DNA of 64,000 nucleotides from positions 62,001 through 126,000 of the forward strand of contig JAJYIT010000004.1 in assembly GCA_021789975.1 (NCBI GenBank), in the 5' to 3' direction. Positions 558-24,332 of this stretch are shown here, piece by piece. The stretch's first letter is position 1; each line of letters opens with the position of its first letter. Position numbers and translations under genes: made by a program. The DNA comes from Bacteroidota bacterium (GTDB lineage: Bacteria > Bacteroidota > Ignavibacteria > Kryptoniales > JAKASW01). The notes under the pieces are model-generated. The model was not told where the DNA came from. It ran no database searches and saw only the letters and a list, made by a program, of their open reading frames with translations.

Positions 558-3500
558 CTACGGCCTGATTCCTATCTCCATCTCATGCCTCTGCACCACA
601 TATTCCGAATACGGCGCGATATAAACATTCTTGATCGTCGGTGCTAGATTGTCGTCACTGCCCTGCCTCAGAACTAGCACGATGCTGTTCGTCCCTTTCA
701 TATTCAGCCATCCATCAGGCAAATAGAAATCCTTTTGCGGGCCGCGCGATGAGTACCTGCCGAACAATCTGCCATTGATCCAGATCTGTGCGCTTCCTGT
801 CGACTCCATGTGCAGCCGCCATGGAATTATCCAGCCGGGTTTTGCAGGCAAAGTGAAATCGCCTCTGTACCATGTTATGCCGTCGGTCTGTGCTGCCTGC
901 GAAAATCGTGTGAATGGTTTCCAGTTTAAGTTGTCGAATGATGTTTTCTCCCACCCCGCAATCTCTCCGGCAAGTTCATAATGATATTTCAGACTCACAT
1001 CAAGTGGTTCGGGGGTTCCCCACTTCAGGACGACAGGTCTCCATATGCCGCCGCCGCCCTGCGTGTTCTGAACATAAAGGGCAATAACATTCTCTCCCGG
1101 TTTGCCTAATTTTGCGAGCGAGACGGTGAACGGTATGTCATAACCGTAGTTGTCGGCCGCGAAGTGTCCGTTGACAAAAACAAACGCATTGTCGTCCACA
1201 CCCTTGAAAGTAATCGACGTGTTTGACCTAAGAGCTTCTTCCGTAAGCATTACACTCTTCCTGAACCACCATCCTTTGTTGGGCCTGATGAAGCTTTGAC
1301 TACCGTTCCCGACTTTGACTTCGTGCCAGGACGCGTCGTTGAAATCCGGAGATGCCTGCTGAGGGCTGTTCTTCGGCAACGGTTCCGGCTTCGGTGAATG
1401 CTTCCAATCATCCAGTGCGGTGATCTGGCCGTCCGCGGAATAGGAGATCGACTTGAGTCCCTTGTGCTGTTCCATGAATCCACCGTTTGGCCATCCTTCA
1501 TTTTCATAATAAATGTCTATCTGGTGTTTTCCTGCGCTCAATTCCGTGGCTGACAAACTCTCCTCGTCGCTCCCTGTCAGACCAGGCACAACTTTGCCAT
1601 CAACCAGCACGGAATGCCAATCATCGTAATAGTAATCGCACTTAAGCAGTCCATTCTTCAGGAACGTAAATTCGCCGGAGTAGACCGTGTAACCACCCCT
1701 GGTGTCACCATCGATATCGAGAGGAAGAATGCTATCGCCACTTACGGGTGCTTCTTTCCAGGCGACTTCAGTTTGTGCTTGTGCGTCCGACCTGACCTTC
1801 AGGTCTCTTATCGGGATCGGGCGTAATGTGAAGTCGGGCGTCGTAAATGAAAAATTCACCATACCTGTTCTTGGAGATATGACACTTCTCACGGGCTTAC
1901 CGTCCATCGTCACCGATGAAACTTTGCCGGCGGCCAGCACGGCAAAAGTGTTGTCCCCCGGCCGGGTCTGCAGACGCAACCCAAGATCACTTCCATTGTG
2001 TCCACCTTTCTCCATCAGGTATGAGTCCGAAACGATAGTGACAGGACCCGACTTCGTCTCAAATACCCGCGACCTTGCGGCCCTTTCCTCGGTAGTCAGC
2101 AGAACGTAAAGATTATTGCACTTGAGTAGCTCATCTCCCTGCTTTACGTCTCCGGTACAATAGCTTGTACCAGCATAGATGGACGCTTCCTGGCCCGGAG
2201 TGCCGTATGCAACGATGAGAGGCTTGTCACCTACCGTTGCAATGGCGGAGATGGGGACGTTGGAATAATGCAGGACCTCGCCGTTAGGAAAAGGAAGCTC
2301 GACGGGTAGGAGATAAGAGCCTCTCGCTTCAAGATGAACATCGATGTTTGCCTCCGAACCCAACGGAGTTTTGAAGCTCACTCTGGCATTCACCGGCTGA
2401 TCTTTCTTGTTCCACACGAAGATGAATCCGGACTTTCCATCCGTCCTGAGAATTGCCTCGACATCTTTGTTGTCGCAAGTAGCGCCGCCTTTCACCTCGT
2501 GAGAGTTGATAAGATGGTCCCCTTCCAGCCTGATGAAGTCACCGATAAGCTTCACACGCCGGTACTTTTCCCACAGCCCGCCGGGTTCCGAGATAGGGGC
2601 CGTGTAATCATAGCTGGTCGTCTTGTCGAACGATCCCCAGTACCCGAAGTTTGTACCACCATACAGCATGTAATAGCTCAGTGCTTTGATCCCGTGTGCA
2701 ATCACATAATCTGTGAGATCGGCAATCTGGTTAGGACCGAAGTCTTCAACTCGCCTGACACTCTTGTCGCCTTCTTCTGAGAACCATCCGCCCTGAAGCT
2801 CTGTGATCATCGGAGGTGACGACGGCTCTTCGCTTTTCATCAGGTCGATCGAATGCCGCGTGCTTTCAATGTTCCATCCGGGATAGAAATTGCACGCATC
2901 CATTATCTGCGAAAAGACGGAATCGTACTTGTCGCGGACCTGTTTCGTCCAGCAAGTAATTATCGGGATGTTGATTCCGTTTTGTATCGCAGTCTCATAG
3001 AGAGACTTAAGATAAATGATCTTCTGGCTGTCGGGTAGGGGATAATAATCGTATTCGTTCTCGATTTGCATCAGTATGATGTTGCCCCCGTTTGTGATGA
3101 GATGCTTCCGAATAACGGGCAGGACTTCATCGTACCAGTATTTCGACCAACTTATATCCGCAGCCGAAGCCGTTCTGTATCCAACGTCCTTCCCTTCAAG
3201 CCATAATGGAAATCCACCAACGTTCCACTCCGCGCAAATATACGGACCCGGTCTGACGATGACATACAGCCCTGCTTTTTGGCAATCATCAAGAAACCTG
3301 TCGAGCGGTTCAAAGTTCGGATGTCCTTGTTCCCTCTCATGCCAGTTCCATGGAACGTAGGTTTCGATCGTATTGAACCCGGCAGCCTTTATTTTCTCGA
3401 GTCGGTCCATCCAGTCCGACGAATCGCACCTGAAGTAGTGGAAGCTGCCGCTGTAAATGAAGACCGGTTTGCCGTGAATAATGAAACCGTCGTGGTTGTA

Positions 3501-3617
3501 GCTGATGATATCGGGGTGGGAAAACTTGATAGGAAACCTCTTCCTTTGTTGCGGCGCACCGCTGAAAGTCGTCAAGAATATCAGTATGCTGGAAATAGTA
3601 AAAAGGAATTTTTGCAT
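558..3617 (-). CDS. GH35 family beta-galactosidase, secreted
   Basis: Predicted exo-beta-galactosidase of glycoside hydrolase family 35, about 1019 residues. I chose the ATG at 3617 because GAGGTGA lies just upstream and the protein then opens with a signal peptide (MQKFLFTISSILIFLTTFSG); the frame stays open 32 codons further upstream. The TIM-barrel N-terminus carries the family segments IYSGSFHYFR and RPGPYICAEW. The predicted acid/base Glu is in QIENEY (about residue 188) and the nucleophile Glu in TELQGGW (about residue 273). The C-terminal half contains jelly-roll, sugar-binding-like domains (for example FVFVNGHF and IWINGRLFGRY), as in large GH35 enzymes. There is no T9SS tail, so periplasmic or outer-membrane-associated action on beta-galactosides is likely. 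It lies about 100 bp downstream of a lipoprotein gene on the same strand. Confidence 0.9.
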   Translation of the reverse strand: MQKFLFTISSILIFLTTFSGAPQQRKRFPIKFSHPDIISYNHDGFIIHGKPVFIYSGSFHYFRCDSSDWMDRLEKIKAAGFNTIETYVPWNWHEREQGHPNFEPLDRFLDDCQKAGLYVIVRPGPYICAEWNVGGFPLWLEGKDVGYRTASAADISWSKYWYDEVLPVIRKHLITNGGNIILMQIENEYDYYPLPDSQKIIYLKSLYETAIQNGINIPIITCWTKQVRDKYDSVFSQIMDACNFYPGWNIESTRHSIDLMKSEEPSSPPMITELQGGWFSEEGDKSVRRVEDFGPNQIADLTDYVIAHGIKALSYYMLYGGTNFGYWGSFDKTTSYDYTAPISEPGGLWEKYRRVKLIGDFIRLEGDHLINSHEVKGGATCDNKDVEAILRTDGKSGFIFVWNKKDQPVNARVSFKTPLGSEANIDVHLEARGSYLLPVELPFPNGEVLHYSNVPISAIATVGDKPLIVAYGTPGQEASIYAGTSYCTGDVKQGDELLKCNNLYVLLTTEERAARSRVFETKSGPVTIVSDSYLMEKGGHNGSDLGLRLQTRPGDNTFAVLAAGKVSSVTMDGKPVRSVISPRTGMVNFSFTTPDFTLRPIPIRDLKVRSDAQAQTEVAWKEAPVSGDSILPLDIDGDTRGGYTVYSGEFTFLKNGLLKCDYYYDDWHSVLVDGKVVPGLTGSDEESLSATELSAGKHQIDIYYENEGWPNGGFMEQHKGLKSISYSADGQITALDDWKHSPKPEPLPKNSPQQASPDFNDASWHEVKVGNGSQSFIRPNKGWWFRKSVMLTEEALRSNTSITFKGVDDNAFVFVNGHFAADNYGYDIPFTVSLAKLGKPGENVIALYVQNTQGGGGIWRPVVLKWGTPEPLDVSLKYHYELAGEIAGWEKTSFDNLNWKPFTRFSQAAQTDGITWYRGDFTLPAKPGWIIPWRLHMESTGSAQIWINGRLFGRYSSRGPQKDFYLPDGWLNMKGTNSIVLVLRQGSDDNLAPTIKNVYIAPYSEYVVQRHEMEIGIRP

Positions 3618-3719
3618 TTTGCTCACCTCAGATATCAAAAGTGACTCGAAGATTGGTGGCGATGAACCTGACAGCCGCGTCGCGTACAACGATCGAAACA
3701 ACGGCCGGTTCATCTTGAT

Positions 3720-14275: not shown

Positions 14276-16215
14276 GAGATTCCGAGACTGAACGCGGTTA
14301 TCCCTGAAAGAGCCCGATCATATCCCATCAAAGAGAATTCCTTAGCAGTATCATAAATGTCTCTCGCAGCTTTCACGCCTGCCGTGAAGCCGCCGCCGAC
14401 TTTCACTGAGGCAAGGAGCATTAGCCTGATTCCGTCACCGCTAAACAGAGTGAATTCGGAAACTCCAGGCAAGTCGGGTTCAGTCACATAGAATGCACAC
14501 TCGTAAGAGTTCGCCTTGTAAAAACAAATCCTGGATCCGATCGAGAAGTTGTTCGTACTCCACTTGTAATCGGACAGAAACAATTCTCCGGCTTCTCCGG
14601 ATGCCAGGAAGTTTTTCTCGATTCTTGCGCGCACAGATAATTCCCGTGATAGCGTGCTCCTCACGTCAATTCTGAAGTTTTGTTTGGATTGTGAGATCGT
14701 AGTAACAGCAGTCGGCACATCCAGAAGGGCGAGGTAGAAATCTTCTTTGGTTTTAAATTTATAGCGCAGGTAGACCGAGACCGCGGGAGCATTCGGAGCA
14801 AAATCTCTGGGCAGCCTTATATAAGATTCCGCGGAGATTTCCTCGCCGTTCTTTTCCGGATCGTTTGAAAATGGAATTATCCTGAACCGGTCATAGTAGA
14901 TACCAAATCTGACATGGTCGAGAATGCGGATAGCCGCACCGAAATATGTGCCTTGTTCCATCGCAGAAGGATAGCTCTCGGCCAGGGGGCCGCTATAGCC
15001 GGGGGCTATCGAGGCCCTGAGATTCCTCACACCGACCGCGAACTGAGTCCCTTCGAATTCGATGCGGGCGCAGGTTGAGAAGGAGATGGTTTTATCCAAT
15101 AGAGCTTCACCGGTAATTGCGGCTCTTTCCGATTGAGCTTGAAAAAAACCTTCGTAGACTGTGAGATTGCTGGGATATCGCTTTGCAAAGCTGCGATCGT
15201 AGCCAAAGTGAGATGCCGAGATCCCGAATGAAGCCCATTTGGAATCATACCGGAGTACGCCGCCAAGGATCATTTCCCCTAGTTTTGAATAAGGCACAGT
15301 GTTCACTGAAGGTAAGTTTGTTCCGGGATAAACGATGGAAGTCACGCCGCCCGCACTGTCAACACGTGCATCAAAATTCTTCATCGATGCAAATCCCGTA
15401 AGCTCCAGCTTTCCTACCGGCACTGAAGCAGCAGCACCTCTTAAAAACCTGCTTTCCTGCCTTGATCTGTAGGGCCTCAGCGAATACATGCTTCTGGAAA
15501 AAAGGGACGTGACCGGGCCTGCACCCTTCGAGAGAATGCTCGCGCTTGAAAATAGGAGCCCGCTGCCAAGGCTGATGGAATAGTTGCCAAGAATAATCGT
15601 CGACAAATATGGCAACCCTTTTATGGCAAGACTCATCGAACAGAAGTCGAAGTAATTTTTCTCACCTGGATCCTTGTCGCTGACACCGTAGAACTCGAAG
15701 TTGCGATAGACCAAGCTGACCCGCTGAAAATTCAATACCCCATTTTCACCGCAAGCTTCACGGTAGAGAGGTATTCTCTGCAGCGAGATGTCCATATAGG
15801 ATTCCAGCTTCAGGTATGTATTGTTCTCTTCCCGTATGAAGGCCCGCTGTCTCAGCGCTTTCATAGCTGTCTGGCTCGCCCCTTCCAGCGGCGAAAGCTC
15901 ATCAACACTATGTATGAATTTAACCCTTCGTCTGTAGTCGAAGATGGCATCTGCAAAGTCTGTGCTCATGCCTGACACAAGCAGGAGGTCCTCAGGGCTT
16001 GCCGTGTTCAGGTCGAACTTGTTTATGATTTCGGTCGCGTCCTCACTACCGGCTACTACAGACTCAAGAACATTCTCATCCCTCACCTCTTCTTCAAGAT
16101 CTTGGGAAGGCGCCGCTTCGGGGTCAAGCGTTGATAGCAACGCAAACATCGTTATGATGATCTTGATCGCCGGTTTTGGATTTGCCGGAGAATTAGCTGA
16201 GCGAGGGATCTTCAT
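14260..16215 (-). CDS. outer-membrane barrel protein with N-terminal helix-hairpin-helix domain
   Basis: A 651-residue protein with an unusual pairing. Residues about 65-130 form a ComEA-like helix-hairpin-helix region (FDLNTASPEDLLLVSGMS, then DAIFDYRRRVKFIHSVDEL). The rest is a long stretch of alternating strands rich in aromatic and Ser/Gly residues that ends in ISYELR, as in outer-membrane beta-barrels. A hydrophobic segment near the N-terminus is the export signal. The start ATG overlaps the stop of the upstream PorV-like gene by 4 bp, so the two are co-translated. The HhH unit normally binds DNA or mediates protein contacts; its role at the outer membrane is unknown. The family is one I have seen in Chlorobi and Ignavibacteria genomes. 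Confidence 0.75.
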   Translation of the reverse strand: MKIPRSANSPANPKPAIKIIITMFALLSTLDPEAAPSQDLEEEVRDENVLESVVAGSEDATEIINKFDLNTASPEDLLLVSGMSTDFADAIFDYRRRVKFIHSVDELSPLEGASQTAMKALRQRAFIREENNTYLKLESYMDISLQRIPLYREACGENGVLNFQRVSLVYRNFEFYGVSDKDPGEKNYFDFCSMSLAIKGLPYLSTIILGNYSISLGSGLLFSSASILSKGAGPVTSLFSRSMYSLRPYRSRQESRFLRGAAASVPVGKLELTGFASMKNFDARVDSAGGVTSIVYPGTNLPSVNTVPYSKLGEMILGGVLRYDSKWASFGISASHFGYDRSFAKRYPSNLTVYEGFFQAQSERAAITGEALLDKTISFSTCARIEFEGTQFAVGVRNLRASIAPGYSGPLAESYPSAMEQGTYFGAAIRILDHVRFGIYYDRFRIIPFSNDPEKNGEEISAESYIRLPRDFAPNAPAVSVYLRYKFKTKEDFYLALLDVPTAVTTISQSKQNFRIDVRSTLSRELSVRARIEKNFLASGEAGELFLSDYKWSTNNFSIGSRICFYKANSYECAFYVTEPDLPGVSEFTLFSGDGIRLMLLASVKVGGGFTAGVKAARDIYDTAKEFSLMGYDRALSGITAFSLGISYELR

Positions 16216-17099
16216 CTCGATCTCAAAGCACTTCGGTATTTCGATATGCTTTCAAATTCGCTGGCCCCGCCCCCAGATATTTTAAATGAGAGCCCGATAC
16301 AATGTGTTATCCCCAGGAATTGGTGATAAGCCATTCCGTATTCAAGCTCGAATGCCAGTAACCTGCAGGCGAGCCCGGCGTGGATGGTATTTGTTCCGCT
16401 GGCCGTTCCACCCCGCAGAGTAAATTCTCTTATAGGTGAGTACTCTGCTGCCAACCTTACAGAGGATGGAAATCCAAGCTCTTTGAAATACTCTACAGCA
16501 ACGTTCACTCGCTCCGACACCAGTCCGCAGCCAAAAGAAATTGTCTGGGGAAGTTTATCCCTTGTAGCTGTCATCGACGCCGAATTGACGTTGGTAGTCG
16601 CGACAGAAATCGCGATATGATCCGAGAGAAACAACCTTGTTCCAAGATCGATGCTGCCGCAAATGCCTGTGCCATATCCTTTGATGAACAGGTGGTTTAT
16701 GTTCAGATTACAACCTAAGAAGAAAAAGTCCGAGATCGGTCTCGACAAGTTGACAGTGTAAATGCTTTCGCGGTACAAATCGTAGCCAAAGGTTTGCGCC
16801 GCTGCACCAAAATCGAATGAAAGAAGATGTCCACGGAAAGAGATGCCGGTAGTTCTGATTTCGGATAGGCCCAATGTAGAGGGTGAGTAGAAAACGTTGA
16901 GTTGCCTTAAGTTGGCACATCGGGCAGGATTGAGGTAGAACGACCAGCAGTCCTCCCCGAAAGAACCAGGGGCTCCCGCCAAAGCGAGGCTCCTGGCACC
17001 GGCAGCACGCCGCTCAAATCCGGCATACGAAACCGACGCAGCGGTAATGAGACGGATTGTCGTCAGGAGTATGAACCCACGATAACCGAGATTCCGCAT
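16212..17099 (-). CDS. PorV/PorQ-like outer-membrane protein
   Basis: A 295-residue secreted beta-barrel protein. After a signal peptide ending near SVSYA, the mature part begins GFERRAAGARSLALAGAPGSFGEDCWSFYLNPARC. This is the RAAGARSxALGGAxxA...NPA opening shared by PorV/PorQ and UPF0164-type proteins. The remainder alternates in strand pattern. PorV shuttles T9SS substrates from the translocon to the attachment complex in Bacteroidota; PorQ has a related role. It sits between porD and the HhH barrel protein, which supports a T9SS or outer-membrane assembly role, but PorV itself cannot be told from paralogues by eye. Confidence 0.72.
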   Translation of the reverse strand: MRNLGYRGFILLTTIRLITAASVSYAGFERRAAGARSLALAGAPGSFGEDCWSFYLNPARCANLRQLNVFYSPSTLGLSEIRTTGISFRGHLLSFDFGAAAQTFGYDLYRESIYTVNLSRPISDFFFLGCNLNINHLFIKGYGTGICGSIDLGTRLFLSDHIAISVATTNVNSASMTATRDKLPQTISFGCGLVSERVNVAVEYFKELGFPSSVRLAAEYSPIREFTLRGGTASGTNTIHAGLACRLLAFELEYGMAYHQFLGITHCIGLSFKISGGGASEFESISKYRSALRSR

Positions 17100-17169: not shown

Positions 17170-18063
17170 CTAGTTCAAATACTTTGAGTAGGTGGATTGA
17201 TGTGCTTGGTCAACGACGGAGAGTTTCTGGAAAATCGACTTGTCGGGATAATTTTTTAGTGCCTCTGCTATCTCGAGATATTTCGCATCGAAGAATTCTT
17301 TAACCAGTGTGTTTCGCGAACCGGACTGAAGCACAAGGTTAATTATTGAATTCAAGGAGCTGACGATTGTCGCCTGAGCGGTGTCAGGCTCGCTTGACAA
17401 TAAGTCTATCCCGTTATACTCGTACTCAAAAAAAGCTTTTCTAAAGAGCTCGCCTCTTGCAGAGAGAAGATCATTTACCAATCCATATCTGGAATAATTC
17501 CCGAGTGTCCCGCTCTGCCATCCCTGGGGGTTGTTACTGTTCTGGCCCATGGTGACGATGTTTGATGCTTTTTGATAGAACCTCGTCCCGCTTTCAGGAT
17601 CACTCGGCGGATAATAAGAATCGGCATCGAAACCGAGGACTATGTACATATAATAGTCTACGAAACTTGTCAGCGAATTGAATTGATAGTCGTTGTGATA
17701 TAACTGCTGGTCCTTCGTATAACTGAATTGCCAGGAGTTATCCATTATGCGGACCATGGGAGAAGTGTTAGACGATTTGTAAATCGGTCTTTGGCTCCCC
17801 ACGAAGGCCTGGGCGGTGTAAACCCCGTTCTGAGCACTCAGGAGATAAATGTTCAGAGTCGCCTGGATCTTCGGTCCTTTCCAATCCTGACCCGTCCATC
17901 TGTGGCTGTTTATGTATTCCTGGATGCTTTTGGCGAGATCAACGACATTCTCGCGATCTGTCCCATTAAGGGCATCATAGTTTATAGTTACAGTGCTGTT
18001 TATCTCCTGTGCGAATCCCGTGGAGAAAGCGGTAAAGACCAATAACGTGATCAGCCATTTCAT
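17170..18063 (-). CDS. porD: type IX secretion system protein PorD (DUF4835 family)
   Basis: A 297-residue protein with a signal peptide (MKWLITLLVFTAFSTGFAQ). It has the DUF4835 layout: NSTVTINYDALNGTDRENV, then an EYINSHRWT segment, GVYTAQAFVGSQRPIYKSSN, WQFSYTKDQQLYHND and FVDYYMYIVLGFDADSYYP. DUF4835 proteins include PorD, a periplasmic/outer-membrane component needed for T9SS in Bacteroidota. Length is normal. It is the first gene of a minus-strand set leading into the PorV-like and HhH barrel genes, with a gap of 70 bp. It fits with the T9SS-tailed proteins encoded elsewhere in the window. Confidence 0.85.
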   Translation of the reverse strand: MKWLITLLVFTAFSTGFAQEINSTVTINYDALNGTDRENVVDLAKSIQEYINSHRWTGQDWKGPKIQATLNIYLLSAQNGVYTAQAFVGSQRPIYKSSNTSPMVRIMDNSWQFSYTKDQQLYHNDYQFNSLTSFVDYYMYIVLGFDADSYYPPSDPESGTRFYQKASNIVTMGQNSNNPQGWQSGTLGNYSRYGLVNDLLSARGELFRKAFFEYEYNGIDLLSSEPDTAQATIVSSLNSIINLVLQSGSRNTLVKEFFDAKYLEIAEALKNYPDKSIFQKLSVVDQAHQSTYSKYLN

Positions 18064-22220: not shown

Positions 22221-24332
22221 TTACTTCAAGAATACCATTTTCATGGTGCTTGTATAATTTTTCGTGGAAAGTCGGTAGAAGTAAACTCCGCTTGCCACTT
22301 CTGTACCTTCATTGTTCCTGCCGTCCCATGTTACCTGGTAAGTTCCGGGAACAAAGTTGTCTTTCGCGAGAACCTTCACTTCCTGGCCGATTGAGTTATA
22401 TACAGTCAGGTTGACAATTCCCGTTCTCGGTACCGAGAAGCTGATTGTTGTCGTCGGGTTGAACGGGTTGGGATAGTTCTGGCCGAGTGCGTAGGTTTGC
22501 GGAACCTTGTCGCTGGATTGTCTTATTCCAGTCAAAGTACCGATCGCCCTTGTGAGCAGCGCGAAGGTATACTTTGCATTATGGACACCGTAACTTCCAT
22601 CCTTGGAGATCAGCAAATAATCCCAGAGTGCACCAAGCTGATTTGTCGTGAGGCCTTTGCCCACGGTTGCATTGCCCGGGTTTGCAAGAACTGAATCCGG
22701 CAATAGCGATGCAAGTTTTGCAAGCAACGCCTTGACCTCCGTTTGCACGCCTGGCATCGGTCCGCCGTTCGCAATTCCGGCATAGTCATACGGTGCCGGG
22801 ATCTGATCGAAGTCAGTGATCGGACCATGGCACGATTGACACGCTGTCGTATTGTCCGTTGTGTCTCCTAAAGCATCGGGTCCGCTCATCTTCCAGGTGT
22901 GACTGCCGAGTCTCGTGGCAGCGTTTGCATCCATTGTATCGGATGCCATGTGGCAAGTAACGCAAGCATCGGTAAGCTGCGTATGGGTATTGGTGCCTGA
23001 TATCGAGTTGTCACCAAATTGATAGCCATTTTCCCCAAAGAAGACGTCAGTTTGCGGTCCTTCATGAGGCCCGAAATATGATTTCCATCCACCCGCGACC
23101 GTTTTATTGGCACTAGAGCGGGCACGGTGGCAGTTCATGCAGAGTTGTCCGACCCCACCTTCGCTGATAGCGAAACCATTCGTCAGTGTGTCGGCCGTTA
23201 CTCTTCTGAGCTGGTACGGATTGGTTGCATCATGCGGATTATGGCATCCCGAGCAAGTGAGAGGCATTTTCCCGTATGTCGGCTGCAGGGTGTTTCCGCT
23301 CATGCGGTCGACGAAACCCGCTCCGTTGTGGCAACCTGCACAGGTCGCCGTTCCACTGTTTATTGCAGACTCCATGTTCTGTATCGCTAGCATTCCGCTG
23401 TCATGTGGGCTGTTTTTCCATTCATACCCGATCGCATGATGGGGAGGTGCATCATGACATTGCAAGCAAACCGAAGCGTCGAGCGACACGGAAATCTTTG
23501 TCGGATCGCCCCAGTGTTCGCTTCCTGCACCGTGGCAGCTTTCGCAGCCTATCGTGCCAAGTTGCGCCAACTGCGCAGAGGTGTGATACAAATGGGCGAA
23601 GTTAGTGTCTGCAAGAGTCTTCGGAAAAGCCCAGCCTACCTGGTTCGCAAGAGCAGCAAAGTTGCCGTTCGCCGCTCCAGGGTTGTAGCCGGTAGTGTGG
23701 CACTTGATGCAGCTTGCACTGTAGCCACCGCCCGCTGGTCCTACACCGTTGAGGTTCTCTTTGAAAAACCATGCGTGAGCAGTGTTCATCCAGTGCGAGT
23801 AGTCAGCCGTCGGGTCGAGTCCCAATCCGGTAAGTGCTCCCTGGTGGCAGGTGCCGCATTGCGGGACTTTTGCAGTTGCCGTGTCGCTACTTGCAATCCC
23901 CATAGATCCGATGCCGACATAGTCAGCAGACGTTATCACGGTCGAAGCCTGCGAGCTTCCACCGGGGGTAGTAATTTGAAGTGTGACCGTGTATTCGCCT
24001 GTCGTATCGACAGTGATCGTGGTAAATGGCGCGGACGCACTATCAATAGTAGCATGCCCACCCATTGGATCAACCACGGACCAGCTTACAGACTGGATTG
24101 TACCTCCTGCGGAATCAATTGCCTGAAGATAAACAACTGTTTTCTCACCGACCGTGCTCAAACCGGTTGTGGGATACATTGAGCTTCCCTTGGAGCCGTA
24201 GACTTGGGTCAAGGTGTAGGGGGTCATCCCGACGATCTTGATGCCAGCCTTTGGCGACGGTGTTGTCTGCGAGAAAGCAAATCCAGCTGCGAGGAATACC
24301 ATAGTCAAACTAGTAACAATTTGTTTCCTCAT
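22221..24332 (-). CDS. nine-haem c-type cytochrome with T9SS sorting tail
   Basis: A 703-residue secreted protein with a signal peptide ending AGFAFSQ and an N-terminal immunoglobulin/PKD-like domain (about residues 30-130). Nine CxxCH haem sites follow: CGTCH, CIKCH, CESCH, CLQCH, CAGCH, CSGCH, CMNCH, CVTCH and CQSCH. The C-terminal sorting domain starts QNYPNPFNPTTTISFSVP and ends YTSTMKMVFLK. It is therefore predicted to be exported by T9SS and held at or released from the cell surface, where it could carry electrons between the cell and external acceptors or act as a surface reductase. The start has AGGAG upstream. It stands alone: no porin-cytochrome partner or cytochrome maturation gene is adjacent. 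Confidence 0.92.
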   Translation of the reverse strand: MRKQIVTSLTMVFLAAGFAFSQTTPSPKAGIKIVGMTPYTLTQVYGSKGSSMYPTTGLSTVGEKTVVYLQAIDSAGGTIQSVSWSVVDPMGGHATIDSASAPFTTITVDTTGEYTVTLQITTPGGSSQASTVITSADYVGIGSMGIASSDTATAKVPQCGTCHQGALTGLGLDPTADYSHWMNTAHAWFFKENLNGVGPAGGGYSASCIKCHTTGYNPGAANGNFAALANQVGWAFPKTLADTNFAHLYHTSAQLAQLGTIGCESCHGAGSEHWGDPTKISVSLDASVCLQCHDAPPHHAIGYEWKNSPHDSGMLAIQNMESAINSGTATCAGCHNGAGFVDRMSGNTLQPTYGKMPLTCSGCHNPHDATNPYQLRRVTADTLTNGFAISEGGVGQLCMNCHRARSSANKTVAGGWKSYFGPHEGPQTDVFFGENGYQFGDNSISGTNTHTQLTDACVTCHMASDTMDANAATRLGSHTWKMSGPDALGDTTDNTTACQSCHGPITDFDQIPAPYDYAGIANGGPMPGVQTEVKALLAKLASLLPDSVLANPGNATVGKGLTTNQLGALWDYLLISKDGSYGVHNAKYTFALLTRAIGTLTGIRQSSDKVPQTYALGQNYPNPFNPTTTISFSVPRTGIVNLTVYNSIGQEVKVLAKDNFVPGTYQVTWDGRNNEGTEVASGVYFYRLSTKNYTSTMKMVFLK

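Follow-up and report, generated by a model that had tools for sequence, protein, structure and literature searches.

A nine-haem OcwA-type cytochrome with a T9SS sorting tail, a predicted surface partner of the porin-cytochrome conduit in Ignavibacteria

The window analysed here, a 64,000-nucleotide stretch of DNA (C79:62001-126000) from a 4.70 Mb, 98% complete genome, carries a gene for a cytochrome in which an OcwA-type nine-haem core is joined to a T9SS sorting domain. We propose, with a probability of roughly 0.6, that the product is a terminal redox protein delivered to the cell surface by the T9SS and fed by a porin-cytochrome conduit, which it does not replace. OcwA-type proteins are used by Gram-positive bacteria for metal respiration, and the T9SS is best known for exporting enzymes and adhesins. 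A literature search that took in few subscription papers and no preprints found nothing joining multihaem cytochromes with the T9SS. Papers are cited below for the parts of their text that were available to us. That part of PMC5492636, on M. roseus, does not treat the nonahaem protein. In PMC7829351, OcwA is placed in a subclade of Gram-negative nonahaem cytochromes in which no other member is monoderm, so the core family was already known in Gram-negatives; the T9SS is not mentioned in the part available.

Anatomy of the gene and its product

An earlier, sequence-only reading of the window had described a nine-haem cytochrome with a T9SS tail, and this description held. The frame is intact, starts with ATG and encodes 703 amino acids with no internal stops and with nine CxxCH motifs, and its sorting domain (residues 620-700) scores 34.5 bits against TIGR04183, for which the cut-off is 23. 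The features of the gene are as follows.

22221-24332, minus strand: T9SS-tailed OcwA-type nonahaem cytochrome, whole gene, 703 aa (reading frame, nine CxxCH motifs, homologues)
24267-24332, minus strand: putative Sec signal peptide, residues ~1-22, without a lipobox (by eye; hydrophobic start conserved in the alignment)
23922-24263, minus strand: N-terminal Ig/PKD-like domain, residues ~24-137 (Pfam matches below cut-off, AF2 strands, fold matches)
22530-23912, minus strand: OcwA-type haem core, residues ~141-601, with a three-helix bundle (529-601) at its end (profile, VIA, AF2)
22827-23858, minus strand: nine CxxCH haem motifs, first to last, residues 159-502 (sequence)
22224-22502, minus strand: T9SS type A C-terminal sorting domain, residues ~611-703 (TIGR04183; fold match to PorU CTD 6za2)

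The signal peptide, MRKQIVTSLTMVFLAAGFAFSQ, was called by eye and contains no lipobox cysteine. Pfam PKD matches to the N-terminal domain stay under the cut-off; the AlphaFold2 (AF2) model of the cytochrome (mean pLDDT 81.4) shows strands there, and structural alignment to the PKD chains 2y72 and 4tn9 gives Z scores of 8.4-8.6. The haem motifs begin at residues 159, 208, 263, 289, 331, 360, 398, 457 and 498, and the helices of the bundle span residues 529-543, 563-578 and 586-601 of the model.

Two Pfam tail models fall slightly under their cut-offs (PF18962, 26.1 vs 27; PF13585, 26.5 vs 27). The tail aligns structurally with the PorU CTD 6za2 (Z 10.5, rmsd 2.4 over 90 residues); the scores of complement C3 and other Ig-like domains are only slightly lower. 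Since the fold match is non-specific, the assignment of a T9SS tail stands on TIGR04183. The combination of nine haems with this tail is not due to chance, since the same architecture is found in homologues across the class. The signal peptide and TIGR04183 tail are those of a T9SS type A substrate, from which the protein differs in its cargo, a nine-haem cytochrome. A promoter scan gave no match. The window also contains a GH35 beta-galactosidase gene (558-3713, minus strand).

The haem core is related to that of OcwA

A profile made from an alignment of 27 homologues (A1, also used for invariance counts) was searched against structure chains. It matched OcwA of Thermincola potens (6i5b) with E 1.4e-25, OmhA with E 2.6e-21, NrfA with E 1.5e-10 and octahaem nitrite reductases with E of ~1e-8 to 1e-5. 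VIA re-alignment of the AF2 model also placed OcwA at the top (Z 13.3, 337 residues, rmsd 4.0, 28% identity), followed by an octahaem nitrite reductase (11.2) and an NrfHA chain (11.0). Foldseek alone, run with the cytochrome model, returned no cytochrome in its best 50 matches, which were other domains, mostly Ig-like. Membership of the OmcA/MtrC family (TIGR03507) was rejected, the score being 35.6 against a cut-off of 209.3. NrfA nitrite reductases carry a CxxCK active-site haem, and some have CxxCH instead; in the 703-aa sequence CxxCK is absent, all nine motifs being CxxCH.

In the profile alignment, all nine haem motifs pair co-linearly with those of OcwA, whose residue numbers were mapped with an inferred offset of 29. 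Exactly six histidines outside the motifs (186, 310, 367, 423, 478 and 584) are invariant in 27/27 rows of A1, as is Met462, and each of them aligns to a histidine or the methionine of OcwA. In the latter, six haems are bis-His and one is His-Met, and the two that remain are open and have His-His pairs (PMC6703420); the ligand pattern predicted for our cytochrome matches the set of six bis-His and one His-Met haems. The pair in the haem-2 pocket aligns with His298-His299, positions at which histidine is found in 10/27 and 18/27 rows of A1, respectively. The haem-5 pair is absent at 420/421, where an aromatic residue and a glycine stand instead. With one pair variable and the other replaced, the cytochrome is, as judged from the alignment, a relative of OcwA and not its orthologue, and nitrite-type catalysis does not appear to be clearly conserved.

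The protein thus shares with OcwA the nine co-linear motifs, the NrfA-like three-helix bundle, the positions of six histidines and one methionine and, by prediction, a place at the cell surface. OcwA resides in a Gram-positive wall, whereas the cytochrome described here adds a PKD domain at the N-terminus and a T9SS tail at the other end, lacks the haem-5 His-His pair and has just the above 28% identity over the structural alignment. OmhA of Carboxydothermus ferrireducens (6qvm), a secreted surface cytochrome with a related core, differs in having 11 haems, in its Gram-positive host and in lacking a T9SS tail.

One could also suppose that the protein works outside the cell on soluble substrates (nitrite, hydroxylamine or metal oxyanions), as an enzyme with NrfA-like chemistry at five-coordinate haems and not as a reductase of minerals or partner cells. 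The matches to NrfA and the octahaem nitrite reductases and the alignment of His298-His299 with the haem-2 pocket pair would fit such a role, as would the slow reduction of nitrite and turnover of hydroxylamine by OcwA itself (PMC6703420). However, the haem-2 pair is not kept among homologues, the haem-5 pair has given way to aromatic-Gly, no CxxCK motif is present, and neither export nor a conduit would be needed to reduce a soluble anion, which could happen in the periplasm. We regard an enzyme of this kind as unlikely.

The tail is conserved and a sister clade carries a different anchor

The core was found in 42/61 relatives and in 64/395 genomes of a sample drawn from the phylum; 62 of the 64 belong to the same class as our genome, the exceptions being G149 and G180. 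The best named homologues in a search of genome contigs come from MAGs of Ignavibacteriae and "Bacteroidetes", which suggests that our genome belongs in or near the class Ignavibacteria. The profile scan of these contigs was dominated by the tail peptide NYPNPFNP, and the core was matched (E 1e-4) in 4/80 loci (L113, L114, L115 and L116). A plasmid search matched tails only, in 3 records, and no core.

Altogether, 103 distinct frames in the loci collected matched the core, of which 84 are closed and reach its end; the other 19, open, partial or partly matching, were left out. The tail is present in 69/69 closed in-phylum frames with at least eight haems, and its core is invariant in the alignment of 27 homologues. 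Nine haems without a tail were seen in 2 of the 84 frames, L115 (Acidobacteria) and L116, both from the contig scan. Two more have a tail and fewer motifs, one owing to a run of N (L020) and the other being a fragment (L015). The remaining 11 frames have 5-6 haems and no tail, and in 11/11 a lipobox is followed by a collagen-like G-x-y run (9 identified by script; L220 and L236 by eye). These short forms make up a single clade (support 100/96) in a maximum-likelihood tree of 87 rows. An apparent loss giving a 6-haem variant in G001 was traced to an assembly gap (a run of N).

As can be seen, one core bears two different outer-membrane destinations, a T9SS tail and a lipidated stalk, which argues that the outside of the cell is where it would work. 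It could be objected that the tail is a relic, or that the protein remains in the periplasm. The tail's presence in every closed in-phylum frame with at least eight haems, the invariance of its core and the different outer-membrane anchor of the sister clade all stand against this, and a periplasmic protein would explain neither the tailed nor the stalked end. We find such a reading scarcely credible.

Several further arrangements were observed. Six same-genus loci (L088, L089, L090, L091, L092 and L096) contain a tandem second T9SS-tailed nonahaem gene, with products 52-56% identical, which our genome does not have. L116 encodes two adjoining OcwA-like nonahaem proteins without a T9SS tail, whose ends are repeats resembling thrombospondin-3 (by eye) and perhaps represent another surface sorting route. 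Tail-bearing multihaem proteins with no match to the core at E 1e-4 are encoded at L117 4792-6321 (8 CxxCH, Ignavibacteria MAG) and L133 4123-6831 (16 CxxCH, Neomarinimicrobiota MAG).

The T9SS machinery and its other substrates

SprA is encoded in the genome (934.8 bits) and in 59/61 relatives, including 42/42 of those with the cytochrome; the two relatives without it (G007 and G060) also lack the cytochrome. A PorU-like frame was found in pieces scoring 252.7 and 85.5 bits, which do not reach the cut-off of 420. PorD is encoded in the window at 17170-18063 (minus strand; NF052317, 219.8 bits, cut-off 170), ~4 kb from the cytochrome gene, and this synteny is kept inside the genus. The gene next to PorD (16212-17099) gives a weak PorV/PorQ match of 20.7 bits (cut-off 90). 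Cytochrome c assembly is represented by 4 PF01578 genes, so the absence of maturation genes, which would have spoken against the sequence-only reading, was not observed.

With a conserved tail, SprA in every cytochrome-bearing relative and a stalked sister form, export to the surface by the T9SS, as first suggested from the sequence, remains the best prediction. PorU cuts T9SS tails off at the outer surface, so that cleavage of the tail, which the earlier reading had coupled with a periplasmic location, would not mean a periplasmic protein.

We searched the genome for further T9SS-tailed CxxCH proteins and found none besides the nonahaem cytochrome. The count, 1/147 tailed frames, covers 80/81 merged stretches (the one left out has a 92-aa frame) and 150/174 scored candidates, and 1-2 frames were perhaps counted twice at window overlaps. 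With CxxCH in just one of these frames, the T9SS is rejected as a general cytochrome route in this genome. The wider suggestion of extracellular electron transfer built on the T9SS survives in part: the OcwA-like core makes such transfer plausible.

A conduit gene cluster co-occurs with the cytochrome

The haem-motif pattern has 584 sites in the genome against 206 in a reversed control, with clusters at C53, C51, C72 and C64, none of them tailed. The cluster at C53 was analysed by frames and family searches.

C53:34.7-46.8 kb, all genes in one direction: predicted conduit cluster

Its first three products are an 18-haem protein ending in a cytochrome b561-type domain, a cytochrome b and a 9-haem protein whose C-terminus has a hydrophobic stretch. 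These are followed by a second cytochrome b, an NapC/NirT-type 18-haem protein, a 136-aa frame and a 4-haem c554-like protein, and at the end of the cluster by a 465-aa protein, a 14-haem protein and a 6-haem lipoprotein. The 465-aa protein matches no Pfam or NCBIfam family. Fold searches with its AF2 model (pLDDT 83.4) match general outer-membrane barrels, MtrB-type chains being absent among the matches listed; on this model, it is a predicted outer-membrane barrel. The cluster is kept throughout the class: homologues of the barrel were found in 45/61 relatives, and barrel, 14-haem protein and lipoprotein adjoin in 19/21 neighbourhoods. Of the two exceptions, G026 stops at a contig edge and the barrel in G057 was missed by the gene caller. 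As for the other clusters, C51 at ~15-21 kb (L076) encodes 20-haem and 18-haem proteins next to an FAD/4Fe-4S oxidoreductase and to a frame whose C-terminus is barrel-like, and C64 (L079) encodes a 27-haem protein.

A conduit consists of a periplasmic multihaem cytochrome, an integral outer-membrane barrel and a redox lipoprotein (PMC6148476), and the predicted products of the C53 cluster fit this definition. Porin-cytochrome complexes have been reported in Ignavibacteria before (PMC7399161). The cluster holds the same three part types as the Ext/Omc conduits of Geobacter and the Mtr conduit of Shewanella; it differs from them in that its barrel lies outside any Pfam or NCBIfam family and in that the nonahaem cytochrome, whose gene usually lies outside the cluster, is predicted to be T9SS-delivered and is no lipoprotein. 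The sequence-only reading had supposed that the nine haems reach the outside without the usual conduit, and this is not borne out. Candidates for the inner-membrane and periplasmic partners that it proposed to look for are encoded at C53, namely inner-membrane modules and the 14-haem protein.

Barrel and cytochrome are both present in 41 and both absent in 15 of 61 genomes, with 4 having the barrel only and 1 the cytochrome only. The agreement is 56/61 (Fisher p 8e-10, uncorrected for shared descent), the short form being counted as cytochrome presence (5 genomes carry it alone). By family (17), there are 11 with both, 5 with neither and 1 with the barrel only (p 0.001). In G049, G021, G058 and G040, the short lipoprotein form is encoded inside the conduit cluster. 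In our genome and nearly all relatives, the cytochrome gene lies outside it, and outside the genus the gene has no conserved operon partner or neighbour. The tailed gene of G026 stands directly upstream of the barrel gene. This single adjacency is weak, since the genome is fragmented, the contig is 4.4 kb long, the start of the tailed gene is cut off, and the two genes are parted by a terminator-like hairpin.

That the cytochrome gene stands alone, and that G018 carries it with no barrel detected, could suggest a T9SS cytochrome route that bypasses the conduit, the protein being charged, for example, in the periplasm before export or by diffusible shuttles. However, the G018 genome is just 78% complete, and our genome encodes a full conduit that co-occurs with the cytochrome, a pattern that a conduit-free route leaves unexplained. 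Moreover, a protein exported once could hardly sustain a respiratory flux. We consider such a bypass highly improbable.

Discussion

A terminal reductase that is delivered by the T9SS and works with the conduit accounts for the conservation of the tail, for the stalk found in its place in the sister clade and for the co-occurrence. The protein would reach the periplasm through Sec and have its nine haems attached there. It would then cross the outer membrane, folded, through the T9SS (SprA), whereupon PorU would cut the C-terminal domain and the OcwA-type haem core would stay on or near the surface. Charged by the conduit, the surface nonahaem would be the outermost part of an electron wire that spans the outer membrane.

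The flow might also be inward, with Fe(II), a mineral or a partner cell as the electron donor and the protein passing the electrons to the conduit. Conduits can run both ways, Fe(II) oxidisers being cited for the inward direction (PMC6148476), and nothing in the sequence fixes the direction; on the other hand, the nearest characterised relatives have been studied as reductases (PMC6703420, PMC7829351). An inward role seems improbable to us. As to the position of a T9SS-delivered protein in the chain, the conduit has an outer lipoprotein of its own, so the nonahaem could be an extra instead of the terminal piece. In known non-diffusive outer-membrane conduits, the outer cytochrome is placed as a lipoprotein (PMC6148476).

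More generally, we lean slightly towards seeing the OcwA module as a portable surface reductase for which at least three modes of attachment outside the cell exist: within the wall of Gram-positives, next to the conduit on a collagen-like stalk that is lipidated, and through the T9SS. In this class, the T9SS would then be the standard delivery of the outermost electron-transfer protein, and conduit and T9SS would belong to one extracellular respiration apparatus.

If this is true, a T9SS-delivered terminal cytochrome found throughout the class would add to the known delivery routes. It would account for what is fed by some of the multihaem genes that abound in Ignavibacteria, and would connect a family of Gram-positive reductases with secretion machinery of Gram-negatives. 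An OcwA core combined either with TIGR04183 or with a lipobox-collagen stalk may serve as an annotation rule for candidate electroactive lineages.
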